DNA from: Pseudonocardia nigra
GTDB taxonomy: Bacteria; Actinomycetota; Actinomycetes; Mycobacteriales; Pseudonocardiaceae
Assembly (NCBI RefSeq): GCF_019396355.1
Contig: NZ_JAHKRK010000002.1
Span: 62,001 to 126,000 of the forward strand
Direction of reading: 5' to 3'
DNA length: 64,000 bases
Position numbers and translations under genes: made by a program. Below the pieces are notes generated by a model that worked only from the letters and a program-made list of their open reading frames with translations, searched no databases and had not been told where the DNA came from. Positions within the stretch are counted from its first letter, which is position 1, and each line of letters begins with the position of its first letter. Positions 40,281-64,000 of the stretch are shown here, one piece after another.

Positions 40281-41510
40281 TCAGGGCGGCGAATGGGCAC
40301 GCGACACCCGGCGCACCCACGTGTCGGGAGGGAGGTCCTCCCGGAGTCTGACGCCGTGGCCCGGCTCGCCACCGGGCGAGATGTGGCCGTCCTCGACGAC
40401 CGGCACCCCGACGACGAGCTCGCGGTACCAGGTGCGGAGGAACGCGCGCACCGTCTCCTGGACGAGCCCGTTCGGCTGGCTGGTCACGAGGTGGGTCGAG
40501 CAGGCCAGCGTGACCGGGCCGGTGCAGTCGTGCGGGGCGACGGGGACCGCGTAGGCGTCGGCCATCGTGGCGATCTTGCGGGCCTCGGTCAGGCCGCCGG
40601 TCCACTGGAGGTCCATCGTGGCGACGTCGACGGCTCCGGACTCGAGCAGCGGCTGGAACCCGCGCCTGCCGACGCAGGTCTCGCCGGTGGCGATCGGCAG
40701 GTCGACGTTCGCGGCGAGCCGGGCGAAGGCGTCGGTGGCGTCGGACCGGAGCGGGTCCTCCACCCAGTAGGGCTGGTACGGGACGAGTGCCTGCATGATC
40801 TTCTCGGCGGCCGGGCGGTGCCACAGGCCGTGCAGCTCGATCATGAGTGACATCCCGAGCCCGACCTCCTCGCGGACCGCCTCCACGATGCCGATGGCCT
40901 CGGCGAGCGCGTCGGCGGAGATGTCCGTGCCGTTGGTGCGCTCGGCCTCCAGGTCGAACGGCCAGATCTTCATGCCGCGGATGCCTTCGTCCCACAGCGA
41001 CCGGGCGAGCTCACGCGGCCTCCGGAGGAAGCCGTCGAGATCCTCCAGGTTCTCGGTGGGCGGCAGCTGCGCCGACGACCCCTGGTCCGGGAGCAGCCCC
41101 CAGTTGTCGGACGACTGGCGTGCGGCGTCGCGGATGTAGCCCAAGCCGGCACAGGTGTTGTAGACGGGCATCGGCGTGCGGACGGGCCCACCCAGCAGCC
41201 GGGTGAGCGGCAGCCCGGCGGCCTTGCCGAGCAGGTCCCACAGCGCGAAGTCGATCGCGCCGTTCCCGCGGGTCTCGGCTCCCGCTCCCTGGAAGCCCAT
41301 GTAGGGGGTGAGGGTCCGCGCGCAGAGCTCCGGCGACACGTCCGGCATCGCAAACAGGACCTCGGCCGTCTCGTGCAGGTAGGCGTCCACGGCGGGGACG
41401 CCGTTGAACGCCTCACCGAGCCCGACCAGGCCGTCGTCGGTCCGCAGCTCGACGAAGAGCAGGTTGGGGTGCATCGGTGTGCGGACGGTCTCCAGCTCGA
41501 CGATCCTCAC
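40281..41510 (-). CDS. Enolase-superfamily enzyme (mandelate racemase/muconate lactonizing type)
   Basis: A 409-residue enolase-superfamily protein. The N-terminal capping domain is followed by the barrel with GMKIWPFD (Lys/acid region), MIELHGLWHRP, YWVEDPL, ATGETCVGRRGF and APHDCTGPV, which supply metal ligands and the His/Asp base. Such enzymes dehydrate sugar acids or racemise hydroxy acids; the substrate is not evident. GTG 41510 is preferred, with GGGAG upstream. It is divergent from the Nramp-fold transporter (194 bases apart), which may import its substrate. Confidence 0.88.
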   Translation of the reverse strand: MRIVELETVRTPMHPNLLFVELRTDDGLVGLGEAFNGVPAVDAYLHETAEVLFAMPDVSPELCARTLTPYMGFQGAGAETRGNGAIDFALWDLLGKAAGLPLTRLLGGPVRTPMPVYNTCAGLGYIRDAARQSSDNWGLLPDQGSSAQLPPTENLEDLDGFLRRPRELARSLWDEGIRGMKIWPFDLEAERTNGTDISADALAEAIGIVEAVREEVGLGMSLMIELHGLWHRPAAEKIMQALVPYQPYWVEDPLRSDATDAFARLAANVDLPIATGETCVGRRGFQPLLESGAVDVATMDLQWTGGLTEARKIATMADAYAVPVAPHDCTGPVTLACSTHLVTSQPNGLVQETVRAFLRTWYRELVVGVPVVEDGHISPGGEPGHGVRLREDLPPDTWVRRVSRAHSPP

Positions 41511-41703: not shown

Positions 41704-43233
41704 ATGGCGACACCGACGAACCCGAATGCCGGCCGGAGCGGCTTCGCGCTGCCCAGCAAACATCTTCCCGCGGTCGCGGTCCGGGACCTGCCCGAGCCAC
41801 CCGTGCAGACCTGGAAGATCATCGGACCCGGTGTCGTCGGCGCCGGGATCGGGCTGGCGTCCGGCGAGTTCATCCTCTGGCCCTACATCGCCTCACAGAT
41901 CGGCCTGGTCTTCCTCTGGGGCGCAGCGGTGGGCGTGCTGACCCAGTGGTTCATCAACATGGAGATCGAGCGCTACACCCTCGCCACCGGCGAGACCGCG
42001 CTGACCGGGTTCAGCCGGATGTGGCGGCACTGGGGCCTCGTCTTCGTGGTGATGACCTACTTCGCGAACCTGTGGCCCGGCTGGGCGACGAGCTCCGCGG
42101 CGTTGTTCACCTACCTCTTCGGCGGCGGCGACGTCAACCTCATCGCGATCGTCATGCTGCTCGTGATCGGGGCGGCGCTGACGCTCGCGCCGGTGGTCTA
42201 CATCGTGGTCGAGCGCGTGATCTTCCTGAAGGTCGCGGCGATCGTCGTGTTCGTCGTCATCGCCGCCGTCTTCGCCATCACCGCCGCCACCTGGCAGAGC
42301 CTGCCGAGCGCCGTGACGAGCTTCGGTCAGGTACCGGCCGAGGAGCTCGGGTTCGCACTCGTGCTCGGGGCCGTCGTCTTCGCCGGAGCCGGCGGCGGGC
42401 AGAACCTGTGTCAGAGCAACTGGATCCGCGACAAGGGCTTCGGCATGGGCGCCCACATCCCGCGGCTGGTGAGCCCCGTGACGGGTCAGGAGGAGGCGGC
42501 TCCCTCGACCGGCTTCGTGTTCGAGACCGACGAGGAGAACCTCTCGCGGTGGCGCCGCTGGTGGCGGTTCGCCAACTGGGAGCAGATGCTCACGGTCCCG
42601 GTCATCACGGTGTTCACGATCGCGTTCATGTCGATGCTCGCCGCGTCCACCGTGTTCGGCCGCGACGACGTCCCCAACGGCATCGGCTTCCTCGACATCG
42701 AGGCGCAGGTGCTCGGTGACACCGTGGGTCCCTGGTTCGGGGCGCTCTTCCTCGTCATCGGCGCCTTCTCCCTCCTCGCGGCCGCCATGGGCATCGTCGA
42801 CTACACCAGCAGGCTCGCGGCCGACCAGCTCAAGACCTCGTACCTGCGCAACTCCACGATCAGCGAGAGCAAGATCTACTTCGCGCTGGTGTGGGGCCTG
42901 GTGCTGATCGGGATCGTCGTGCTCCTGGCCGGCCTCGACCAGCCGCTCGTCCTGCTGGTGATCTCGGCCTGCGTCGGTGGCGGGATGATGTTCATCTACT
43001 CGATCCTGCTGCTGGTCCTCAACCGGCGGGCGTTGCCCGCGCCACTGAAGATCCGCTCCTACCGGATCGCCGCACTGGTGTGGTCCATCCTGCTGTTCGG
43101 CGTGCTGTCGGTCATCACGGTGATCGAGCAGGGGCAGAAGCTGGCGGGTAGCTGGCCACGGCTCAGGTGGCCGCGGTGCGGAAGCCGCAGTTCCCGCTGC
43201 TCGACCCGGGCGTGTTCGCGCTGCGGGCGCTGA
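41704..43233 (+). CDS. Nramp-fold transporter lacking metal-site motifs (first)
   Basis: A 509-residue polytopic protein of the Nramp/NRAMP-like superfamily, starting at ATG 41704 after GGGAGGGACAGGG. TM1 reads GPGVVGAGIGLASGEFIL where metal transporters have D-P-G-N, and TM6 reads FAGAGGGQNLCQSN where they have M-P-H. Loss of both metal-site motifs argues against a manganese/iron transporter. A hydrophilic loop of about 50 residues follows TM6. The last about 24 residues (from SWPRLRW) look like non-family sequence, Arg/Cys-rich, and are encoded antisense to the end of the FGE gene; the original stop may have been lost. A homologue is at 59657. Confidence 0.85.
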   Translation: MATPTNPNAGRSGFALPSKHLPAVAVRDLPEPPVQTWKIIGPGVVGAGIGLASGEFILWPYIASQIGLVFLWGAAVGVLTQWFINMEIERYTLATGETALTGFSRMWRHWGLVFVVMTYFANLWPGWATSSAALFTYLFGGGDVNLIAIVMLLVIGAALTLAPVVYIVVERVIFLKVAAIVVFVVIAAVFAITAATWQSLPSAVTSFGQVPAEELGFALVLGAVVFAGAGGGQNLCQSNWIRDKGFGMGAHIPRLVSPVTGQEEAAPSTGFVFETDEENLSRWRRWWRFANWEQMLTVPVITVFTIAFMSMLAASTVFGRDDVPNGIGFLDIEAQVLGDTVGPWFGALFLVIGAFSLLAAAMGIVDYTSRLAADQLKTSYLRNSTISESKIYFALVWGLVLIGIVVLLAGLDQPLVLLVISACVGGGMMFIYSILLLVLNRRALPAPLKIRSYRIAALVWSILLFGVLSVITVIEQGQKLAGSWPRLRWPRCGSRSSRCSTRACSRCGR

Positions 43234-52968: not shown

Positions 52969-54156
52969 GTGGACGGGCAGATCCGCGTCGGCATGGTGGG
53001 GCACGCGTTCATGGGGCGGGCCCACTCGCAGGCGTGGCACACGGTCGGCCGGGCGTTCGACCTCCCCCTGCGGCCGGTCACCGCGGCGATCGCCGGGCGC
53101 AACGAAGCCGCCCTCGCCGAGGCCGCGGACCGGCTCGGCTGGGAGTCGACCGAGACCGACTGGCGCCGCCTCGTCGAGCGTGACGACATCGACCTCGTCG
53201 ACATCTGCTCGCCGGGCGACACGCACGTCGAGATCGCGCTCGCGGCACTCGCCGCGGGCAAGCACGTGCTGTGTGAGAAGCCGCTGGCCAACACGGTCGC
53301 CGACGCCGAGCGGATGACGGTGGCGGCCGAGGCCGCCAGGGCACAGGGCGTGCGCTCGATGGTGGGCTACAGCTACCGGCGCACGCCGGCGCTGGCGCTC
53401 GCCCGGCAACTGGTCGCCGACGGGCGGATCGGCGACATCCGCCACGTCCGCGCCGCCTACCTGCAGGACTGGATCAGCGACCCGGAGTTCCCGCTGGTCT
53501 GGCGGCTCCAGAAGGACCTGGCCGGCTCCGGCGCGCTCGGCGACATCGGCTCGCACATCGTCGACCTCGCCCAGTTCCTCACCGGGCAGCACATCACCGG
53601 TGTCAGCGCCCTGACCGAGACGTTCGTGAAGGAGCGGCCGCTCCCCAGCGCGTCGGCGGGGTTGTCGGCCACGGGCGGGACCGAGCGGGGTGACGTCACC
53701 GTCGACGACGCAGCCCTGTTCCTCGCCCGGCTCGACGGCGGCGCCGTCGCCACGTTCGAGGCCACCCGGTTCGCGCTCGGGCGCAAGAACGCCATGCGCA
53801 TCGAGATCAACGGCTCCCGCGGGAGCCTCGCCTTCGACTTCGAGTCGATGAACGAGCTGCAGTTCTTCGACGGCACCGGGCCGGCCGAGGACGCCGGGTT
53901 CCGCCGGATCCTCGCCACCGAGCCCGATCACCCGTACCTGTCGGGCTGGTGGCCGCCCGGCCACGGTCTGGGCTACGAGCACACGTTCACCCACCAGGCC
54001 AAGGACATGGTCGAGGCGATCGCGGCGGGCACCGACCCGGCGCCGAGCTTCGCCGACGGGCTGCGGGTGCAGCGGGTGCTCGACGCCGTCGAACGCAGTG
54101 CCGCCGCGTCCTCGACCTGGACGCCCATCGCCTGTACCGCCGCAGAGGGGGACTGA
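52969..54156 (+). CDS. Gfo/Idh/MocA family oxidoreductase (first)
   Basis: A 395-residue NAD(P)-dependent sugar dehydrogenase. The Rossmann loop is [13 protein letters not shown] (about 7-19), the catalytic EKP motif is [13 protein letters not shown], and the C-terminal sheet domain has [18 protein letters not shown] with the D and H of the active site. GTG 52969. Likely oxidises or epimerises a sugar or glycoside; first gene of a four-gene operon under LacI control. Confidence 0.92.
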
Positions 54157-54157
54157 C

Positions 54158-55165
54158 ATGCCACGTCCGGTCACGCTGTTCACCGGCCAATGGGCCGACC
54201 TGCCGTTCGAGGAGGTGTGCCGGCTCGCCGCGGAGTGGGGTTACGACGGGCTGGAGATCGCCTGCTGGGGCGACCACTTCGACGTCCACCGCGCCCTCGC
54301 GGAGGACGACTACGTCGCCGGGCGGCACGAGATCCTGAAGCGGCACGGGCTCGCCGTGCACGCGATCTCGAACCACCTCGTCGGCCAGGCCGTCTGCGAC
54401 GCGATCATCGACGAGCGGCACCAGGCGATCCTGCCCGCGCGGATCTGGGGCGAGGGCGACGCGGAAGGCGTGCGGCAGCGGGCCGCCACCGAGCTCGCCG
54501 ACACCGCCCGGGCCGCCGCGAAGCTCGGTGTGCACACCGTCGTCGGGTTCACCGGCTCGCCGATCTGGCACCTGGTCGCGATGTTCCCGCCGGTGCCCGA
54601 GTCCATGATCGAGCGTGGGTACGCCGAGTTCGCCGAGCGCTTCCACCCGATCCTCGACGTGTTCGACGAGGTCGGCGTCCGCTTCGCCCACGAGGTCCAT
54701 CCCAGCGAGATCGCCTACGACTACTGGTCGACGGTGCGCACGCTGGAGGCGATCGGGCACCGCGAGGCGTTCGGGCTGAACTTCGACCCGAGCCACTTCG
54801 TGTGGCAGGACCTCGACCCCGTCGGGTTCCTGTGGGACTTCAAGGACCGGATCTACCACGTCGACTGCAAGGAGGCGACGAAGCAGCTGAACGGCCGCAA
54901 CGGCCGGCTGGGCTCGCACCTGCCGTGGGGCGACCCGCGCCGAGGCTGGGAATTCGTCTCCACCGGACACGGGGACGTGCCGTGGGAGCCGGTCTTCCGG
55001 ATGCTCAACGCGATCGGCTACGACGGGCCGATCTCGATCGAGTGGGAGGACGCCGGTATGGACCGGCTGTACGGCGCGCCCGACGCGCTGGCCTTCGTCC
55101 GCGCGCTCACGAAGATCGAGCCGTCCGCCGCGTCGTTCGACGCCGCCTTCAGTTCCGGGAGCTGA
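54158..55165 (+). CDS. Sugar phosphate isomerase/epimerase (AP-endonuclease-2 fold)
   Basis: A 335-residue TIM barrel of the xylose-isomerase-like family. Metal-site acids and histidines appear in [33 protein letters not shown] and ISIEWEDAG. Members include IolE-type dehydratases, hydroxypyruvate isomerases and 3-keto-sugar epimerases. It begins one base after the first dehydrogenase stop. Together with two Gfo/Idh enzymes it suggests a keto-sugar pathway. Confidence 0.9.
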
Positions 55166-55174
55166 TCAGCGAAC

Positions 55175-55828
55175 ATGCCCACCGCACTCGTGGTGCGCGG
55201 CGGCTGGGAGGGCCACTCCCCCGTCGAGACCACCGACAGCTTCGTCCCGTTCCTCGAGAAGTCCGACCACGAGGTCGTGCTGTCCGACACCCTCGACAGC
55301 TACCTCGACGCCGACCTGATGGGCCGCGTCGACCTGGTCGTCCAGTGCTGGACGATGGGCACCATCAGCAAGGAGCAGCTCGCGGGGCTGCGCGGGGCCG
55401 TCGAGAACGGCGCCGGGCTCGCCGGCTGGCACGGCGGGATCGTCGACGCGTTCCGCAGCGCCAGCGACTACCTGCAGATGACCGGCGGCCAGTTCGCCTG
55501 CCACCCGCGCGACTTCGTCGACCACACCATCGAGGTGGTGCCCGAGAAGACCGATCACCCGATCGTCGCCGGGATCTCGACCGTCACGCTGCACACCGAG
55601 CAGTACTGGATGCTCACCGACCCGGCCAACGAGGTGCTCGCCACCACCACGACGGCCTCGCTGCCCGGCGACCCGTGGAGCGAGCCCGTGGTCTCCCCCG
55701 CGGTCTGGACGCGCACCTGGGGGGCCGGACGGATCTTCGTCTGCACCGTGGGTCACAAGCCGGAGGATCTCGACGTGCCCGAGATCCGCAGCATCGTCGA
55801 GCGGGGGCTGCTGTGGGCGAGCCGCTGA
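55175..55828 (+). CDS. ThuA domain protein
   Basis: A 217-residue ThuA/trehalose-utilisation family protein, a glutamine-amidotransferase-like fold without proven catalysis. Recognisable: ALVVRGGWEGHSPVETTD, GLAGWHGGIVDAFR, TGGQFACHP, TVGHKPEDLDVPEI. It is commonly co-encoded with Gfo/Idh dehydrogenases in disaccharide or 3-keto-glycoside catabolism. It overlaps the next gene by 16 bases. Confidence 0.9.
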   Translation: MPTALVVRGGWEGHSPVETTDSFVPFLEKSDHEVVLSDTLDSYLDADLMGRVDLVVQCWTMGTISKEQLAGLRGAVENGAGLAGWHGGIVDAFRSASDYLQMTGGQFACHPRDFVDHTIEVVPEKTDHPIVAGISTVTLHTEQYWMLTDPANEVLATTTTASLPGDPWSEPVVSPAVWTRTWGAGRIFVCTVGHKPEDLDVPEIRSIVERGLLWASR

Positions 55829-56895
55829 ACGTAGGCGTAGTCGGGCTGGGCAAGATCAGCGCGGCGTACCTGACGACGCTCGCGCGGCTACCGGAGCTGC
55901 AGGTCACGGCGCTGGCCGACCGCGACCCGGCCCGCGCCGACGCCGCCGTCGCGCTCGCGCCCGACGCCCGTGCGGTGCCCGTCGAGGAGCTGCTCGCGGC
56001 CGACGACGTGGACCTCGTCCTGAACCTGACGGTCCCCGCCGCACACGCCGAGGTGGCGACGGCGGCGCTCGCCGCGGGCAAGCACGTCTACGGCGAGAAG
56101 CCGCTCGCGATGACGGTCGCCGAGGCCCGCGGCGTGCTCGCCGGTGCGGACGGGCGCCGGGTCGGCTGCGCGCCCGACACCGTGCTCGGCACGGGGACGC
56201 AGACCGCGGCCGCCGCCGTCCGGGACGGGCGGATCGGCGCGCCGATCGCCGCGACCGCCGTCTTCAGTTCGGCGGGACCGGAGGTGTGGCATCCCGACCC
56301 CGAGTTCTACTACCTGGCGGGTGGCGGCCCGCTGCTGGACATGGGCCCGTACTACTTCACCTCGCTGATCCACCTGCTCGGCCCGGTGGAGCGGGTGATG
56401 GGCGCGGCCACGAGGTCCCGGCCCACCCGCACGATCGGCAAGGGGTACCGGGCGGGCACCGAGTTCCCGGTGGAGGTCGACACGCACGTCACGGGGGTGC
56501 TCGTGCACACCTCCGGGGCCATGACCACGATCACCACGAGCTTCGACGTGGTCGGGTCCGACCAGCCGCGGATCGAGGTGCACGGTGCGGACGGCTCCCT
56601 GTCGGTGCCCGACCCGAACCGGTTCGACGGCGACGTGAAGCTGCGCCGCCGCGGGGACGACGGGTGGACGGTGCTGGAGCCGGCGGCGGGCTACCGCGAC
56701 GCGGCCCGCGGCGTCGGGGTGCTCGACCTCGCCGATGCCCTCGCCGCCGGGCGGCCGCACCGCGCGTCGGCGGAGGTGGCGCTGCACGTCCTCGACGTCA
56801 TGCAGACCCTGCTCGAGGCCGGGCACGCGCAGGCGAGCCTGCCGGTCACGACGAGGTGCGAACAGCCCGAGCCGGTGCCGTTGACCCCGCTGTGA
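55813..56895 (+). CDS. Gfo/Idh/MocA family oxidoreductase (second)
   Basis: A 360-residue sugar dehydrogenase: Rossmann loop VGVVGLGKISAAYL, catalytic GKHVYGEKPLAMT, and GGGPLLDMGPYYFTSLIHLLGPV in the substrate domain. GTG 55813 lies inside the ThuA gene. With the first dehydrogenase it could interconvert hydroxyl and keto forms at one carbon of the substrate. The stop is followed at once by the hairpin 56899-56919. Confidence 0.92.
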   Translation: MGEPLNVGVVGLGKISAAYLTTLARLPELQVTALADRDPARADAAVALAPDARAVPVEELLAADDVDLVLNLTVPAAHAEVATAALAAGKHVYGEKPLAMTVAEARGVLAGADGRRVGCAPDTVLGTGTQTAAAAVRDGRIGAPIAATAVFSSAGPEVWHPDPEFYYLAGGGPLLDMGPYYFTSLIHLLGPVERVMGAATRSRPTRTIGKGYRAGTEFPVEVDTHVTGVLVHTSGAMTTITTSFDVVGSDQPRIEVHGADGSLSVPDPNRFDGDVKLRRRGDDGWTVLEPAAGYRDAARGVGVLDLADALAAGRPHRASAEVALHVLDVMQTLLEAGHAQASLPVTTRCEQPEPVPLTPL

Positions 56896-59321: not shown

Positions 59322-59675
59322 TCATGATGAGGGCTGGGGCGCATCATGATGCGTGACCCGGGCCCGGTGCGCCGAGTACACCCCCAGCGCGGCCAGCACG
59401 AGCGCGAGCGGCGGGAACCAGAACACCGCGGCACACGCCAGCGCGAGGTTGGCCACGGCGAGCCGCACCCACCCCCGCCGAGCCGGGTCGTCCGCGCCGG
59501 CCTGCACGCGCGCGCCGCCACCCCCGCGCAGCGCCGGCGCGAGGTGCGCCAGCGCGACCGCGGCGAACAGGGTCGCCCACAGCGGCTCCCCGTCGGTGAA
59601 GCGCCACACCGACAGCACCGCGAAGCAGGCCGCGGCCAGGGCCGCACCCGGGTGACTCAGGCGAACAGCTGCCAC
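59322..59675 (-). CDS. Small membrane protein downstream of the Nramp-fold gene
   Basis: A 117-residue protein from GTG 59675, overlapping the 3' end of the transporter gene by 19 bases. It has three to four hydrophobic segments (GAALAAACFAVLSVWRF, LWATLFAAVALAHLAPAL, VRLAVANLALACAAVFWF, PPLALVLAALGVYSA). No family is recognised; translational coupling suggests it works with the transporter. Confidence 0.6.
   Translation of the reverse strand: MAAVRLSHPGAALAAACFAVLSVWRFTDGEPLWATLFAAVALAHLAPALRGGGGARVQAGADDPARRGWVRLAVANLALACAAVFWFPPLALVLAALGVYSAHRARVTHHDAPQPSS
59340..59353. promoter_or_regulatory. Palindrome upstream of the antitoxin
   Basis: CGCATCATGATGCG is a perfect 14-base palindrome 34 bases upstream of the antitoxin GTG, with a related TTCATGATGA at 59321-59330. 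A fitting antitoxin operator, lying inside the 3' end of the small membrane-protein gene. Confidence 0.5.
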
Positions 59676-61108
59676 GTCGACACCACCCCGAGGACGGTCA
59701 GCAGGATCCCGGACAGCACGACCCACCACCGGCCCGCCCGCGACAGCCGGTAGGCCGGGGGCAGGACCTTGTGCTCGGTCCAGACGATCGCCAGGCAGAA
59801 CAGGCCCGAGGTGAGCAGCCCGCCGAGCACCGACGCGGGCGTCACGATCACCACCAGCTCACCGACCGTCCAGACCAGAGCGAGGCTCGCGACCAGGATG
59901 TAGAGGTACATCCACGGCCGCGTCCCGCGCGGCCCCGCCCCGCGCACCCTGGCGAAGACCGGGGAGAGCGTCTCGTAGGCGGTGTAGGTGTAGAGCTCCC
60001 AGAACGCGTAGAGCGAGCCGAAGAACGCGAAGAACACCGCGACGTAGTAGAGGTACTCGAGCGTCGGGTGCACGGCGGTGAGGAACTGGGCCTGGAACGT
60101 GAGCGTGTCGTTGCCCGCCGGGACGATCTGCTCCTCCGCCAGCAGCGCCGCTCCGTTGATCATGAACATGGACGCGAAGACGACGATCGCGGCGAACGAC
60201 AGCACGGTGTCCCCCAGCGGGGCCCTGCTCCACGCCCTGGCCCGCGCGACCTGCTCGGCGTCCTCTGCCAGGGGCAGCCGCGACCCCCGCGGCAGCGCCG
60301 CGAGCCGCTCGGCCATGCCCGCCTGGTCGGGCCGTCCCAGCAGGCCCCACTTCTTCTCCCGCAGCATCCCCGCGTAGCCGATGTAGTCGTAGGTGCCGCC
60401 GCCGATCGCGCCGAGGTACACCGCGAGCTCGAGCCACACCGACCGCTGTGCGATCTCCGGGTACGCGCCGGCGACCCACCCGTGGTACTCGGGGACGCCC
60501 GGCAGCAGCCCGCCGAGCGCGGCGAGCCAGTCCGGCTGCAGCACCACCACGCTGATCGCGATCGCGATCAGCATGAACCCGACGACGACCGTCTGCGCCT
60601 TCTCCAGCCGCTGGTAGCCGCCGAACCAGGCCAGCAACCCGGAGAGCACGATGAGCGCCGTCGCCCACGCCGCCCCGGTGCCGACGGCGGTGATCGACGC
60701 CATCAGGTCACCGAGCCCGACCCCCAGCCCGCCGACCCACGACGGGATGGCCGCGATCGACACTGCGCCCATGAGCAGCGGGAACCAGCCGCGCGGGCCA
60801 CGGAACAGCGTGGTCCAGCGCGCCATCGGGTGCTCGCCCGCCACCACGGTGTAGCGGTTGAAGGAGTAGGCCAGCGCCGCCTTCGCCGCGGCGGAGACGA
60901 GGAACGCCCACAGCAGGGCGTAGCCGAACAGCGCACCGCCGCGGGAGGCGAACACCATCTCGCCGCTGCCGATGTTGGCCGAGGCCACGATCGCGCCCGG
61001 CCCCAGCACCGACAGTGCGGTGACGAGCGTGAGCCTGCGCCGCAGCTTCGGCGGCGGCTCCGGATAGGTGAGGAATTCGGTCGTGCCGGTCTCGGCGGGC
61101 TTCGCCAT
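59657..61108 (-). CDS. Nramp-fold transporter lacking metal-site motifs (second)
   Basis: A 483-residue polytopic protein of the Nramp superfamily. TM1 reads GPGAIVASANIGSGEMVFAS in place of the D-P-G-N motif, and TM6 reads YLGAIGGGTYDYIGYAG in place of M-P-H, so the manganese/iron site is absent. It shares the S/A-x-G-S-G-E pattern in TM1 with the homologue at 41704. ATG 61108 has GGAGCGGAC upstream. Between a small membrane protein and an RpiB isomerase, under a GntR regulator, it is more likely to import a small organic solute than a metal. Confidence 0.85.
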   Translation of the reverse strand: MAKPAETGTTEFLTYPEPPPKLRRRLTLVTALSVLGPGAIVASANIGSGEMVFASRGGALFGYALLWAFLVSAAAKAALAYSFNRYTVVAGEHPMARWTTLFRGPRGWFPLLMGAVSIAAIPSWVGGLGVGLGDLMASITAVGTGAAWATALIVLSGLLAWFGGYQRLEKAQTVVVGFMLIAIAISVVVLQPDWLAALGGLLPGVPEYHGWVAGAYPEIAQRSVWLELAVYLGAIGGGTYDYIGYAGMLREKKWGLLGRPDQAGMAERLAALPRGSRLPLAEDAEQVARARAWSRAPLGDTVLSFAAIVVFASMFMINGAALLAEEQIVPAGNDTLTFQAQFLTAVHPTLEYLYYVAVFFAFFGSLYAFWELYTYTAYETLSPVFARVRGAGPRGTRPWMYLYILVASLALVWTVGELVVIVTPASVLGGLLTSGLFCLAIVWTEHKVLPPAYRLSRAGRWWVVLSGILLTVLGVVSTWQLFA

Positions 61109-61134: not shown

Positions 61135-61596
61135 TCAGGCCGGTTCGGTGGCCATCTCCCGTTCCATGTCGTGCAGCATCTGCACGCGGCGGCGGCAGTC
61201 CGGGTCGGTGCTGAACCTCGCCGCGAGGAACTCCTCGAGCACCTGCGTGGCGATCGCCGGGCCGACGAGCCACGCCCCGAGGCACACGACGTTGACGTCG
61301 TCGTGCTCGACGGCCTGCCGTGCGGTGTAGGTGTCGTGGGCGACCGTCGCCCGGATCCCGGCGATCTTGTTCGCGGCGATGGCCGCCCCGACGCCCGTGC
61401 CGCAGACAAGCACGGCGCGGTCGGCCTCACCCGCGCGCAGTGGCGCGCTCACCGCCTTCGCGATGTCGGGGAAGTCGACCGGCTCCGCGCTGTGCGTGCC
61501 GACGTCGCGGACCTCGTGGCCCAGGCCCTGGAGGACGGACCGGACGTGCTCCTTGAGGGGGAAACCCGCGTGGTCGTTGCCGAGGACGATGCGCAT
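61135..61596 (-). CDS. RpiB/LacAB family sugar-phosphate isomerase
   Basis: A 153-residue isomerase. Active-site features: GNDHAGF (D8, H9), the catalytic C65 in LVCGTGVGAAIAANKIAGIRA, and HDTYTARQAVEHDDVNVVCLGA. It isomerises aldose and ketose 5- or 6-phosphates. The organism probably has another RpiB for the pentose phosphate route, so this copy may serve a specific sugar. ATG 61596 lies 13 bases after the GntR stop. Confidence 0.92.
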   Translation of the reverse strand: MRIVLGNDHAGFPLKEHVRSVLQGLGHEVRDVGTHSAEPVDFPDIAKAVSAPLRAGEADRAVLVCGTGVGAAIAANKIAGIRATVAHDTYTARQAVEHDDVNVVCLGAWLVGPAIATQVLEEFLAARFSTDPDCRRRVQMLHDMEREMATEPA

Positions 61597-61609: not shown

Positions 61610-62344
61610 TCATCGGTTCTCCTGCTGCCGCACCGACTCCAGCCAGGCCAGCGACTCGGGCGAGCCGCCGGGGAAGGTGTCGCCCGCGTCCAGCAGGAAC
61701 GTGCGGTCGCCGTGGTGGGCCAGCTCGTGATGGACGGCTGCGGTGTCGCCGCGCTCGACCAGCTCGAGGATCCGCCGGTGCCGCTGCGCGTCGCCGAGCA
61801 GCGTCTCCCGGCTCCGGCGGGCCTGGCGGTTCATCGCCATGCACAGGCGCAGCTGCAGCGCCAGCGCGCGGTAGGCCTCCTCGAGCCTGCGGTGGCCGGC
61901 GAGGCCCACGACGGCGAGGTGGAACGCGAACCCGCGCTCGGTGACGGCCGCGGGGTCGCCGTCCTGCGCGGCGCGTTCGAGCGCGGCGTACGCCTCCCGG
62001 CAGCGGTTGATGCGCTCCGGCGCCCGGCACGGGACGCCGAGGTCGACGGCCAGGCGCTCGAGGTCGTGGCGCAGGGTGAAGATCTCGTAGACGTCGTGCA
62101 GCGTGAGCGGCGTGACCACCGCGCCGCGCCGCGGGGTCCGCACGATCAGCCCCTCCTGCTCCAGCACCGCCATCGCCTCCCGCAGCGGGGGCTTGCTGAC
62201 GCCGAGCGACTCGATGAGGTGGTTCTCGACGACGCGGTCGCCCGGCTGCAACTCGCCGCTGAAGATCATGTTCCGCAGCGCCGACGCCGCGAGCTGCGTG
62301 ATGCTCGGCGGCGACTCGATGCGCCGAGGCGACGGGGCGGACAC
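61610..62344 (-). CDS. GntR family regulator with FCD domain
   Basis: A 244-residue GntR regulator. HTH at about 15-75 (LRNMIFSGELQPGDRVVENHLIESLGVSKPPLREAMAVLEQEGLI in stretches), FCD domain with metal ligands in RHDLERLAVD, FAFHLAVVGLAGH and QRHRRILELVERGD. GTG 62344 is preferred (GAAGGAG upstream) although the frame is open to ATG 62428. Divergent from the CoA-transferase gene; CTGTAGACAG at 62411-62420 is a likely site. It probably controls both directions. Confidence 0.88.
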   Translation of the reverse strand: MSAPSPRRIESPPSITQLAASALRNMIFSGELQPGDRVVENHLIESLGVSKPPLREAMAVLEQEGLIVRTPRRGAVVTPLTLHDVYEIFTLRHDLERLAVDLGVPCRAPERINRCREAYAALERAAQDGDPAAVTERGFAFHLAVVGLAGHRRLEEAYRALALQLRLCMAMNRQARRSRETLLGDAQRHRRILELVERGDTAAVHHELAHHGDRTFLLDAGDTFPGGSPESLAWLESVRQQENR

Positions 62345-62410
62345 GGAGGTTTCGTCTCCTTCCGATCGAGAAGAACTTGCGGCTGCCTCTTGCCCGAGGA
62401 CTACGGACGT

Positions 62411-62420
62411 CTGTAGACAG
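62411..62420. promoter_or_regulatory. Probable GntR (FCD) operator
   Basis: CTGTAGACAG is a palindrome embedded in GTCTGTAGACAG, resembling the TTGT-N2-ACAA type sites of FCD regulators, midway between the divergent GntR and CoA-transferase starts. Confidence 0.5.
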
Positions 62421-62460
62421 TAATCCACCTCACAGCGGTAGCAACACTTCGGAGGCGTGC

Positions 62461-63717
62461 GTGACGGTCCGAGACAGCAGCCCTCCCCTCGCCGGGATCA
62501 CCGTGCTGGAGGTCGGCGCCTTCATGGCGGCGCCCTTCGCGACCATGCAGCTCGCCGATCTGGGCGCCACCGTCCTCAAGATCGAGGTGCCCGGCGCAGG
62601 CGACCCGGTCCGCGCCACCGGGCCGTTCGTGCACGGGGAGAGCTCCCCCTTCGTGCGGCTCAACCGCAACAAGCACTCCGTCGCCCTCGACCTCAAGTCC
62701 GCGAAGGGCCGGGAGGCGTTCCTGCGGCTGGCGGCGTCGGCCGACGTGCTGGTGGAGAACCTGCGGCCGGGCGCGATGCGCAAGCTTGGGCTCGACTACG
62801 AGAGCCTGCGTCCCACCGCCCCGCGGCTGGTCTACGCGTCCGCGTCGGGGTGGGGCCAGGACGGCCCGCTCGCGGCGCTGCCCGGACTCGACATCATGGC
62901 CCAGGCCCGTGGCGGCCTGATGAGCATCACCGGCACCCCGGAGGGCGACCCGACGAAGATTGGCGTCCCGATCTGCGACCTGGTCTGCGCGCTCTACGTC
63001 GCGCTCGCCGTCACCGCCGCGCTGCGCGAGCGCGACCGCACCGGCGAGGGCCAGCACATCGACGTCTCGCTGCTCGAGTCCGGCGTGTCCTTCGCGATCT
63101 GGGAGGCGGGCAAGTACTTCGCCACCGGCGAGGTGGGCAGGCCGCTGGGGTCGGCCCACCAGAGCACAGCCCCCTACCAGGCGGTGCGCACGTCCGACGG
63201 GTTCGTCACGATCGGTGCCGTCACCCCGAAGACGTGGACCGGGCTCTGCGACGTGCTGGGGCTCGCCGCGCTGCACGCCGACGACCGCTACGCCGACGCC
63301 TTCGCCCGGCACGCCCACCGCGAGGCCCTGATCGCCGCGATCGAGGACGTCACCCGGAGCTGGACCAGCGCGAAGCTCGTCGACGCCCTCGACGCCGCCG
63401 GTGTCCCGTGCGCCCCGATCGCCGACTACGCCCAGGTGTTCACCGACGACCACCTGACCGAGCGGAACTACTTCTGGGACGCGCACCACCCCGTCGCGGG
63501 CGAGGTGCGCCAGCTCGGTTCGCCGATGCGCTTCTCGCGCACACCCGCCGTGCGGGCCGCCGCGGGGCCGGTGCTCGGCGACGGCACCCGCGACGCACTG
63601 CGGGCCGCCGGCTACTCCGAGGACGAGATCCGCGACCTGGTCACCGACGGCGCCGCCGCCATCGATGGCGGCGCCCCACCCGCGCCCCGCACCACCGAGA
63701 GGGAGGACCCGGCATGA
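62461..63717 (+). CDS. CaiB/BaiF family (class III) CoA-transferase
   Basis: A 418-residue class III CoA-transferase, which moves CoA between carboxylic acids through an aspartyl-CoA anhydride. The catalytic Asp is D144 in PGLDIMAQARGG; VLEVGAFMAAPFATMQLADLGATVLKIE in stretches and VENLRPGAM are family signatures. GTG 62461 has CGGAGG six bases upstream. Its stop overlaps the start of a TctC-type binding protein (ATGA), so the acid imported by that transporter is probably the CoA acceptor. Confidence 0.92.
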   Translation: MTVRDSSPPLAGITVLEVGAFMAAPFATMQLADLGATVLKIEVPGAGDPVRATGPFVHGESSPFVRLNRNKHSVALDLKSAKGREAFLRLAASADVLVENLRPGAMRKLGLDYESLRPTAPRLVYASASGWGQDGPLAALPGLDIMAQARGGLMSITGTPEGDPTKIGVPICDLVCALYVALAVTAALRERDRTGEGQHIDVSLLESGVSFAIWEAGKYFATGEVGRPLGSAHQSTAPYQAVRTSDGFVTIGAVTPKTWTGLCDVLGLAALHADDRYADAFARHAHREALIAAIEDVTRSWTSAKLVDALDAAGVPCAPIADYAQVFTDDHLTERNYFWDAHHPVAGEVRQLGSPMRFSRTPAVRAAAGPVLGDGTRDALRAAGYSEDEIRDLVTDGAAAIDGGAPPAPRTTEREDPA

Positions 63718-64000
63718 GGACTCGAGCAATGCCACTGGCGGCCGGCACGCTCGCGCTCGCGCTCGCGGTGGCGGGCTGCGGCGGCGACGGCAGTGCCGCG
63801 GAGACCGGCTCGTGGCAGCCGGACGGCGACGTGACGATGGTCGTGCCGTTCTCCCCCGGCGGCGGCAGCGACCGGGCGGGCCGCGCGCTGGCCGCCGCCA
63901 TCGAGGCCGCCGCGCCCGAGGTCGGCGTCAGCGTGGAGAACCGCGAGGGCGGCTCCGGCGCCGTCGGGTACTCGTACTTCCTGGGTCAGGAGGGCGACGC
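63714..64000 (+). CDS. Tripartite tricarboxylate transporter substrate-binding protein (TctC/Bug), partial
   Basis: The first 95 residues of an extracytoplasmic binding protein, cut by the window edge. The signal peptide ends in the lipobox AVAGC (Cys about 22). The mature start holds VTMVVPFSPGGGSDRAGRALA and NREGGSGAVGYSYF, the diagnostic Bug/TctC loops that contact a carboxylate ligand. The family imports citrate-like and other organic acids together with TctA and TctB, which would be expected just beyond the window. Confidence 0.88.
   Translation, partial: MRTRAMPLAAGTLALALAVAGCGGDGSAAETGSWQPDGDVTMVVPFSPGGGSDRAGRALAAAIEAAAPEVGVSVENREGGSGAVGYSYFLGQEGD

Follow-up and report, generated by a model that had tools for sequence, protein, structure and literature searches.

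A divergent Nramp-family gene at 59657-61108 on the minus strand of a 64,000-nucleotide stretch of Pseudonocardia nigra DNA (the window) is paired, here and in nearly all actinobacterial members, with a gene for a small membrane protein (59322-59675). Because the metal-binding residues are gone, the small partner is present and genes of acidic-sugar catabolism lie nearby, the system probably imports a sugar acid and not a metal ion. We consider it reasonably likely that the two proteins form a two-component secondary importer of an acidic sugar.

An atypical Nramp-fold transporter in a tight operon

The transporter gene is an open reading frame of 483 aa, and its ATG start is preceded by GAAGGAG. 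It lies in a minus-strand operon in the order GntR-FCD regulator, RpiB, Nramp and small membrane ORF, with intergenic gaps of 13 and 26 bases and then an overlap between the Nramp stop and the small ORF. The first-pass annotation, made from the letters of the sequence, had described an atypical Nramp-fold ORF beside RpiB, a GntR-FCD regulator and a coupled small membrane protein; family scores and the structural model bear out the fold, and the neighbours do sit on the same strand in a tight operon. Beyond the regulator, a CoA-transferase family III gene is transcribed divergently, probably from a later start than the one listed; it apparently keeps the same order at the Pseudonocardia loci L036, L054 and L055. 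A TctC-type gene begins at the window edge, and apparent TctB and TctA genes continue past it in L012, giving a TctC-B-A set (here and below, genes called apparent, -like or -type and given no score or family are named by sequence). A promoter and terminator scan found none. The features are as follows.

59322..59675, minus strand: small membrane protein, ~117 aa, four predicted helices (homologues, dN/dS, co-occurrence)
59657..61108, minus strand: Nramp-fold transporter, 483 aa (PF01566, AlphaFold model, structural matches)
60374..60412, minus strand: predicted TM6 unwound segment, G233-A-I-G-G-G-T-Y-D-Y-I-G-Y245, canonical GATVMPH... (clade alignment, model)
60881..60883, minus strand: Lys76 in the second long helix (TM2), K in 55/55 clade members
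60959..60979, minus strand: predicted TM1 unwound segment, A44-N-I-G-S-G-E50, canonical A-Y-V-D-P-G-N (clade alignment)
61135..61596, minus strand: RpiB/LacAB-family isomerase, divergent paralogue without the Arg-His pair (PF02502, 158.8 bits)
61610..62428, minus strand: GntR-FCD regulator, exact start uncertain (PF00392 and PF07729)
62377..63717, plus strand: CoA-transferase family III, divergently transcribed (PF02515, 420.9 bits)
63729..64000, plus strand: start of a TctC-type binding protein (gene calls on L012)

Elsewhere in the window, a separate cluster at 52969-56895 holds a levoglucosan-dehydrogenase-like oxidoreductase (390 bits against a cut-off of 650), a xylose-isomerase-like barrel, ThuA and a second Gfo/Idh protein.

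The 483-aa protein belongs to Pfam PF01566 (45.8 bits, gathering score 29.8) and passes NCBIfam Nramp_1 (90.5 bits, cut-off 50), and NCBIfam labels it a divalent metal transporter. It falls far under the cut-off of the NCBIfam MntH model NF001923 (35.9 bits against 430) and under that of TIGR01197 (18.3 against 272.5), models on which E. coli MntH scores 622.6 and 336.3 bits. These cut-offs, together with the motifs described below, rule out a plain MntH homologue. Searched alone against the PDB with phmmer, the protein had 0 matches; by profile its best PDB match is EleNRMT, a Mg2+ transporter (7qia, E 1.2e-9). The AlphaFold model (m3398298c9488, made with 55 aligned members; mean pLDDT 91.1, pTM 0.90) predicts that the Nramp/LeuT-type fold is kept. 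Its best structural match is DraNramp (6c3i; Z 35.2, rmsd 2.7, 382 residues aligned), and it also matches a model of YcsG (Z 33.0) and EleNRMT (Z 31.3). The top 24 Foldseek and top 21 VIA-align rows are all Nramp-family structures or the YcsG model; KimA, APC amino-acid carriers and NKCC1 come next, at Z of ~25-27, interspersed with more Nramps.

The distribution of the transporter is patchy. It occurs in 18 of 297 genomes of the same bacterial family (E<=1e-20) and, in a class-wide sample of 394 genomes (E<=1e-30), in the window's own genome only. Three named Pseudonocardia carry orthologues of 85-88% identity, and a second copy, with 47% identity, lies on contig C211 of the source assembly (8.49 Mb in 601 contigs, 96% complete, 5.6% contaminated). 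Loci from a wider genome scan, for which the best 80 of 138 relatives were used, span Actinomycetota, Haloarchaea, Verrucomicrobiota, Latescibacterota, Gemmatimonadota, Planctomycetota, Acidobacteriota and Bacteroidota. The haloarchaeal members (Haladaptatus and Halocatena; L088, L089, L090), one of them plasmid-borne, suggest horizontal spread. In Pseudonocardia sp. CNS-004 (L057, 8001-8260) the Nramp frame is seemingly broken near TM1, through either sequencing error or decay.

The metal site appears rebuilt across the clade

Site columns were assigned by a profile-profile alignment (hhalign) of 55 clade rows, comprising 54 sequences drawn from 69 full-length ORFs plus the window protein, against 29 MntH proteins. 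Possession of the DPGN and MPH motifs was the criterion by which these 29 were picked as canonical from 31 loci, so the presence of Asp, Asn, Met and His in them is by construction. The two loci outside the 29 are NRMT-like (L162, L163) and read NDAG, with the Asp retained, so the TM1 Asp is found in 31/31 of the top PF01566 loci compared. At the corresponding TM1 columns of the clade, Asp gives way to G47, Pro mostly to S48 and Asn to E50, and Gly stays as G49. G47, G49 and E50 are invariant in 55/55 clade members, the window protein included, and they lie outside the patterns of the clade-finding scan, which cover residues ~35-43 and 247-255.

The TM6 segment carries a different set of invariant residues, with G236, G237, D241 and Y245 in 55/55 clade members, and the model breaks the TM6 helix at 235-238. 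The register here is unsure between two alignments: hhalign places the Met column at residue 240 (Y 34, Q 14, F 6, E 1) and the His column at 242 (Y 54, F 1), and an ungapped alignment places them at G237 and T239, residue 239 being Met in 19/55 clade members. Window residues 233-245 contain no Met and no His, in either register. On the alignment evidence, then, all four metal-motif residues, Asp, Asn, Met and His, appear to have been replaced; the lack of both motifs first read from this one protein (A-N-I-G-S-G-E in TM1, A234-I-G-G-G-T239 in TM6) proves to be clade-wide. A charged residue also appears where MntH has none: Lys76 stands in a column that is Ala in 29/29 MntH (matched by hhalign, and not a selection column), and R56 is likewise clade-invariant. 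APC amino-acid carriers bind carboxylates through GSG loops, and we presume that the GSG of the clade resembles that of carriers such as AdiC; the string "GSG" had 0 occurrences in the text of one APC review.

In actinobacteria, a small membrane protein strictly accompanies the transporter

The small ORF starts at GTG 59675 or at CTG 59660 (CTGA at 59660). dN/dS is below 1 in 15/15 pairs among six orthologues, and 15 homologues align with the protein at 21-67% identity; such comparisons argue for a real gene under purifying selection, and with the co-occurrence described next they rule out a spurious ORF. Its AlphaFold model has four helices at low confidence (pLDDT 65.5). Pfam has no match for the window protein, and over 16 members the best E-value was 0.0016, in one member, so that no convincing family was found.

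A downstream ORF of 105-218 aa with at least 2 hydrophobic stretches follows the transporter in 33 of 34 actinobacterial members, the exception (L065) having just 210 bases of contig after the Nramp gene. By the same rule it follows in 0 of 44 non-actinobacterial members, two of which (L093, L126) have fewer than 600 bases after the gene. In 20/33 there is a 4-base overlap between the Nramp stop and the first possible start of the small ORF. Within the bacterial family, a small-protein profile matched exactly the 18 of 297 genomes that have the transporter, with equal copy numbers, and all 20 matches lie directly after an Nramp match when compared by coordinate (14 candidates were scored per genome, the profile included some of the matched sequences, and 4 of the 20 rows were flagged, each for one internal TGA). 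The small four-helix protein is therefore a strict partner of the transporter in actinobacteria, an association that is new here, and it is likely to be a subunit. Small multi-helix membrane proteins are likewise encoded beside other LeuT-fold carriers, YjcH with ActP and YhdT with PanF; since the window protein has no Pfam family, it shares none with these in Pfam.

Neighbouring genes point to acidic-sugar catabolism

We compared 84 loci, the 80 from the scan plus four from the own genome and G650, of which 78 had a usable Nramp ORF and 42 remained after dereplication; no Nramp ORF was called in six (L088, L092, L094, L127, L130, L116), which are absent from the neighbourhood and partner counts. 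Leaving out proteins shorter than 80 or longer than 900 aa, the 42 loci have 130 genes within two positions of the transporter, including GntR 9, MR_MLE_C 8, FCD 8, FAA_hydrolase 6, IlvD/Edd 4, RpiB 4, HIBADH-type (NAD_binding_2) 4 and cyclase 3. A far set under the same size limits, 131 genes more than 4.5 kb away at 35 loci, has MR_MLE_C 2 and NAD_binding_2 2, the other families falling outside the 25 commonest and hence numbering at most 2 each. Summed over the six families GntR, MR_MLE, FAA_hydrolase, IlvD/Edd, RpiB and HIBADH-type, picked after seeing the data, the near set has 35/130 and the far set at most 12/131 (Fisher p=1.9e-4); tests on single families are weak (GntR p=0.03, MR_MLE p=0.06, FAA p=0.17). 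Among 74 neighbours of 20 MntH loci from the same bacterial family, a control that was not dereplicated, none of the six families is among the 25 commonest (at most 2 each), and the neighbours include TetR 7, YccF 5, ribonucleotide reductase small chain 4 and Mn-catalase 2, as well as the sugar-type families GFO/IDH/MocA (3 of 74) and DHDPS (2 of 74).

At 20 clade loci from that bacterial family, again not dereplicated and with several from Actinomycetospora, clusters of an enolase-superfamily dehydratase, of GntR and of IlvD/Edd proteins recur at 9, 8 and 8 loci, respectively, and a FucP-type permease recurs at 3. The IlvD/Edd cluster scores 863 bits to PRK06131 (cut-off 539) and the permease 322 bits (cut-off 280); the enolase-type neighbour reached no equivalog cut-off. 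A tartrate dehydrogenase above cut-off adjoins the Nramp gene at the paralogue locus L011. The far flank of L036 encodes KduI (400 bits against 250) and a KduD-like SDR just under its cut-off (327 against 338.9), a flank absent beside the window gene, and L054, L055 and L057 have similar KduI-type flank genes with an IclR-type regulator and apparent TRAP genes. At L058 and L059 there are fuconolactonase-like genes that score 152 and 99 bits, below the cut-off of 400, together with HIBADH-type genes, and L060 has an apparent enolase-superfamily dehydratase, an FAH-type gene and an SDR. Non-actinobacterial members have mixed neighbours. In three of them (L103, L112, L124) a cyclase-like gene (PF04199) lies directly before the Nramp gene, and its recurrence may mark a different substrate.

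The recurrent theme in several phyla is sugar-acid and hydroxy-acid catabolism, GntR-FCD regulators included. Because the neighbouring enzymes differ among loci, no single substrate emerges, and the neighbourhood is conserved among relatives by pathway class, as acidic-sugar catabolism, and not as the same genes.

The locus had been annotated at first as one of sugar-phosphate metabolism, a label that the comparison does not support. RpiB adjoins the Nramp gene in 5 of 84 loci (L012, L036, L056, L058, L059), which rules it out as a strict partner, and the window RpiB is one of three paralogues in its genome. An Arg-His pair near the C-terminus, which we take to bind phosphate, is absent from 5/5 Nramp-linked RpiBs and present in E. 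coli RpiB (L189) and in the copy on contig C118 of the own genome, G000 (L186); the copy on C46 (L185) has the Arg and lacks the His. The rarity of RpiB at these loci and the missing pair make a ribose-5-phosphate pathway here doubtful. Nor need an RpiB-family enzyme imply a sugar phosphate, since DhuI, a deoxy-ketouronate isomerase, belongs to the RpiB/LacA/LacB family according to the available text of its report (PMC12838403), from whose description we also considered DhuI as an identity for the window RpiB. The sugar-phosphate label should give way to acidic-sugar catabolism.

Proposed function and alternatives

We propose that the carrier is an Nramp-fold (LeuT-type) protein whose metal site has been rebuilt, working with a dedicated four-helix membrane subunit, and that the adjacent GntR-FCD protein would control uptake. 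The substrate would be an acidic sugar, whether an aldonate, a uronate or a deoxy-ketouronate. Its carboxylate and hydroxyls could be gripped by the glycine-rich unwound loops GSGE in TM1 and GGGxYDY in TM6, at the place where the Asp, Asn and Met of canonical Nramps bind a bare metal ion. Lys76 and Glu50, both invariant in the clade, may have a role in balancing charge or in coupling to protons. The substrate class, the coupling ion, a physical complex with the small protein and the role of that protein are all inferred from these patterns. The broader reading, that the clade as a whole swapped metal for sugar acids with a GSGE/GGGxYDY carboxylate site and an obligate small subunit in actinobacteria, is one that we put forward tentatively. 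A non-metal substrate, already suggested by the first-pass annotation, gains from the clade-wide motif loss, the catabolic neighbours and the MntH control, and it is the better reading though unproven. Counted against a sugar acid are the mixed neighbours of the non-actinobacterial members, which have no small partner, and the Tct and/or TRAP systems near Pseudonocardia loci, which could themselves be the acid importer. Some neighbouring enzymes depend on Mg2+ or Fe-S, and this would fit a carrier that supplies metal.

That the protein is still an importer of Mn2+, Mg2+ or another divalent metal, supplying the adjacent catabolic enzymes through Glu50 and Asp241 as ligands, strikes us as unlikely. 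In its favour, both acids are invariant and the closest solved relative by profile transports Mg2+. The branches of PF01566 described in the accessible part of one study all carry metal, be it transition metals, Mg2+ (NRMT) or Al3+ (NRAT) (PMC10115441), and YcsG (PMC10448178) and MumT (PMC5050338), divergent proteins of catabolic operons by their descriptions there, raise cell Mn. Yet the TM1 Asp and TM6 Met are both lost, although EleNRMT and the two same-family NRMT-like proteins keep the Asp, and an invariant Lys76 sits in TM2. No metal regulator is among the 25 commonest of 154 neighbour families, whereas MntH neighbours include Mn-catalase.

A transceptor or exporter, which would sense or expel an acidic intermediate while nearby Tct and TRAP carriers see to uptake, seems improbable. 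The apparent TctC-B-A genes with the CoA-transferase beside the window gene and its orthologues, and apparent TRAP genes at four Pseudonocardia loci, speak for such a division of labour. Against it, no Tct or TRAP genes were seen by eye among the called genes of the close relatives L058, L059 and L060, though L059 does have one MFS-like gene.

Sugar acids chelate divalent cations, which counts for joint import of metal and acid as a metal-carboxylate complex. Such import would reconcile the conflicting reports of Mn2+ and 5-oxoproline for YcsG and PxpT, as far as the consulted portions of those papers go (PMC10448178, PMC13274462), but it has no direct support in the clade, where no metal-linked family is among the 25 commonest neighbours, and we regard it as very improbable.

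The importer of an acidic sugar that we favour would matter beyond this locus: textbooks present Nramp/SLC11 as a family of metal transporters, and NCBIfam calls such proteins divalent metal transporters. If the proposal is true, this would be a two-component importer of a kind not previously described for Nramps in the literature examined. Among the papers listed by our searches of open-licence literature on Nramps with RpiB, sugar acids or non-metal substrates, none dealt with an Nramp beside sugar-acid genes or with a small membrane partner of an Nramp. Should the wider non-MntH side of PF01566 be alike, the fold family would have other uses besides metal transport. Recent papers are split over the cargo of divergent Nramps encoded in catabolic operons, Mn2+ or an organic acid; the clade offers a sharp, directly testable case and could correct many annotations.

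Related systems and other atypical Nramps

The nearest parallel is PxpT of C. glutamicum, an NRAMP-family protein according to its authors, which is needed for growth on 5-oxoproline and is under a GntR repressor; in the text available to us, 5-oxoproline uptake is inferred and metal is not excluded (PMC13274462). B. subtilis YcsG has been named a Mn2+ importer and called MntG (PMC10448178), and A. baumannii MumT, whose gene lies within a urea operon, aids Mn accumulation (PMC5050338), both as given in the excerpts available. PxpT and YcsG share with the window system an NRAMP-family carrier in a catabolic operon, a GntR regulator and a link to growth on an organic acid, but differ in their other neighbours, and the available text of the PxpT report mentions no small membrane partner (PMC13274462). 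The gene calls at the window locus include none of pxpABC. EleNRMT is alike in profile and fold but keeps the TM1 Asp at the column where the clade has Gly47; MntH and DraNramp are alike in fold but have the Asp, Asn, Met and His that the clade appears to have replaced, and MntH genes have other neighbours. Cellier (2023) described orphan and NRMT groups as PF01566 outgroups of Slc11 (PMC10606218). With its divergent metal site, the clade would by description fit the orphan label, for which the available part of that paper gives no substrate, neighbours or small partner (PMC10606218).

In a 41-row tree one branch (92/98) sets off the clade and a second (100/98) sets off MntH. The other window Nramp (41704-43233) and a paralogue on contig C282 of the own genome fall between the clade and MntH on long branches, and a PxpT-like protein of that genome groups with MntH, away from the clade, on a long branch (4.82); the positions of all these long branches are unsure. 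The two atypical window Nramps nonetheless look like separate lineages, in keeping with the two independent placements beside carbon-metabolism genes that had been noted at the outset.

Each of these further Nramps has company of its own. The one at 41704-43233, on the plus strand, scores 554 bits to NF037982 and adjoins an enolase-superfamily-like gene at ~40281-41510 on the minus strand. The C282 paralogue (L013, 1-4851), whose motif reads GSGEL, immediately follows an apparent TctC-TctB-TctA set on the downstream side. On contig C569 (L016, 2557-7838) an Nramp-type gene, apparently a PxpT homologue, scores 30.8 bits to NF037982, below cut-off, and its TM1, judged from sequence alone, also lacks DPGN; it is accompanied by a GntR-like gene and apparent PxpA, PxpB and PxpC (5-oxoprolinase) genes.
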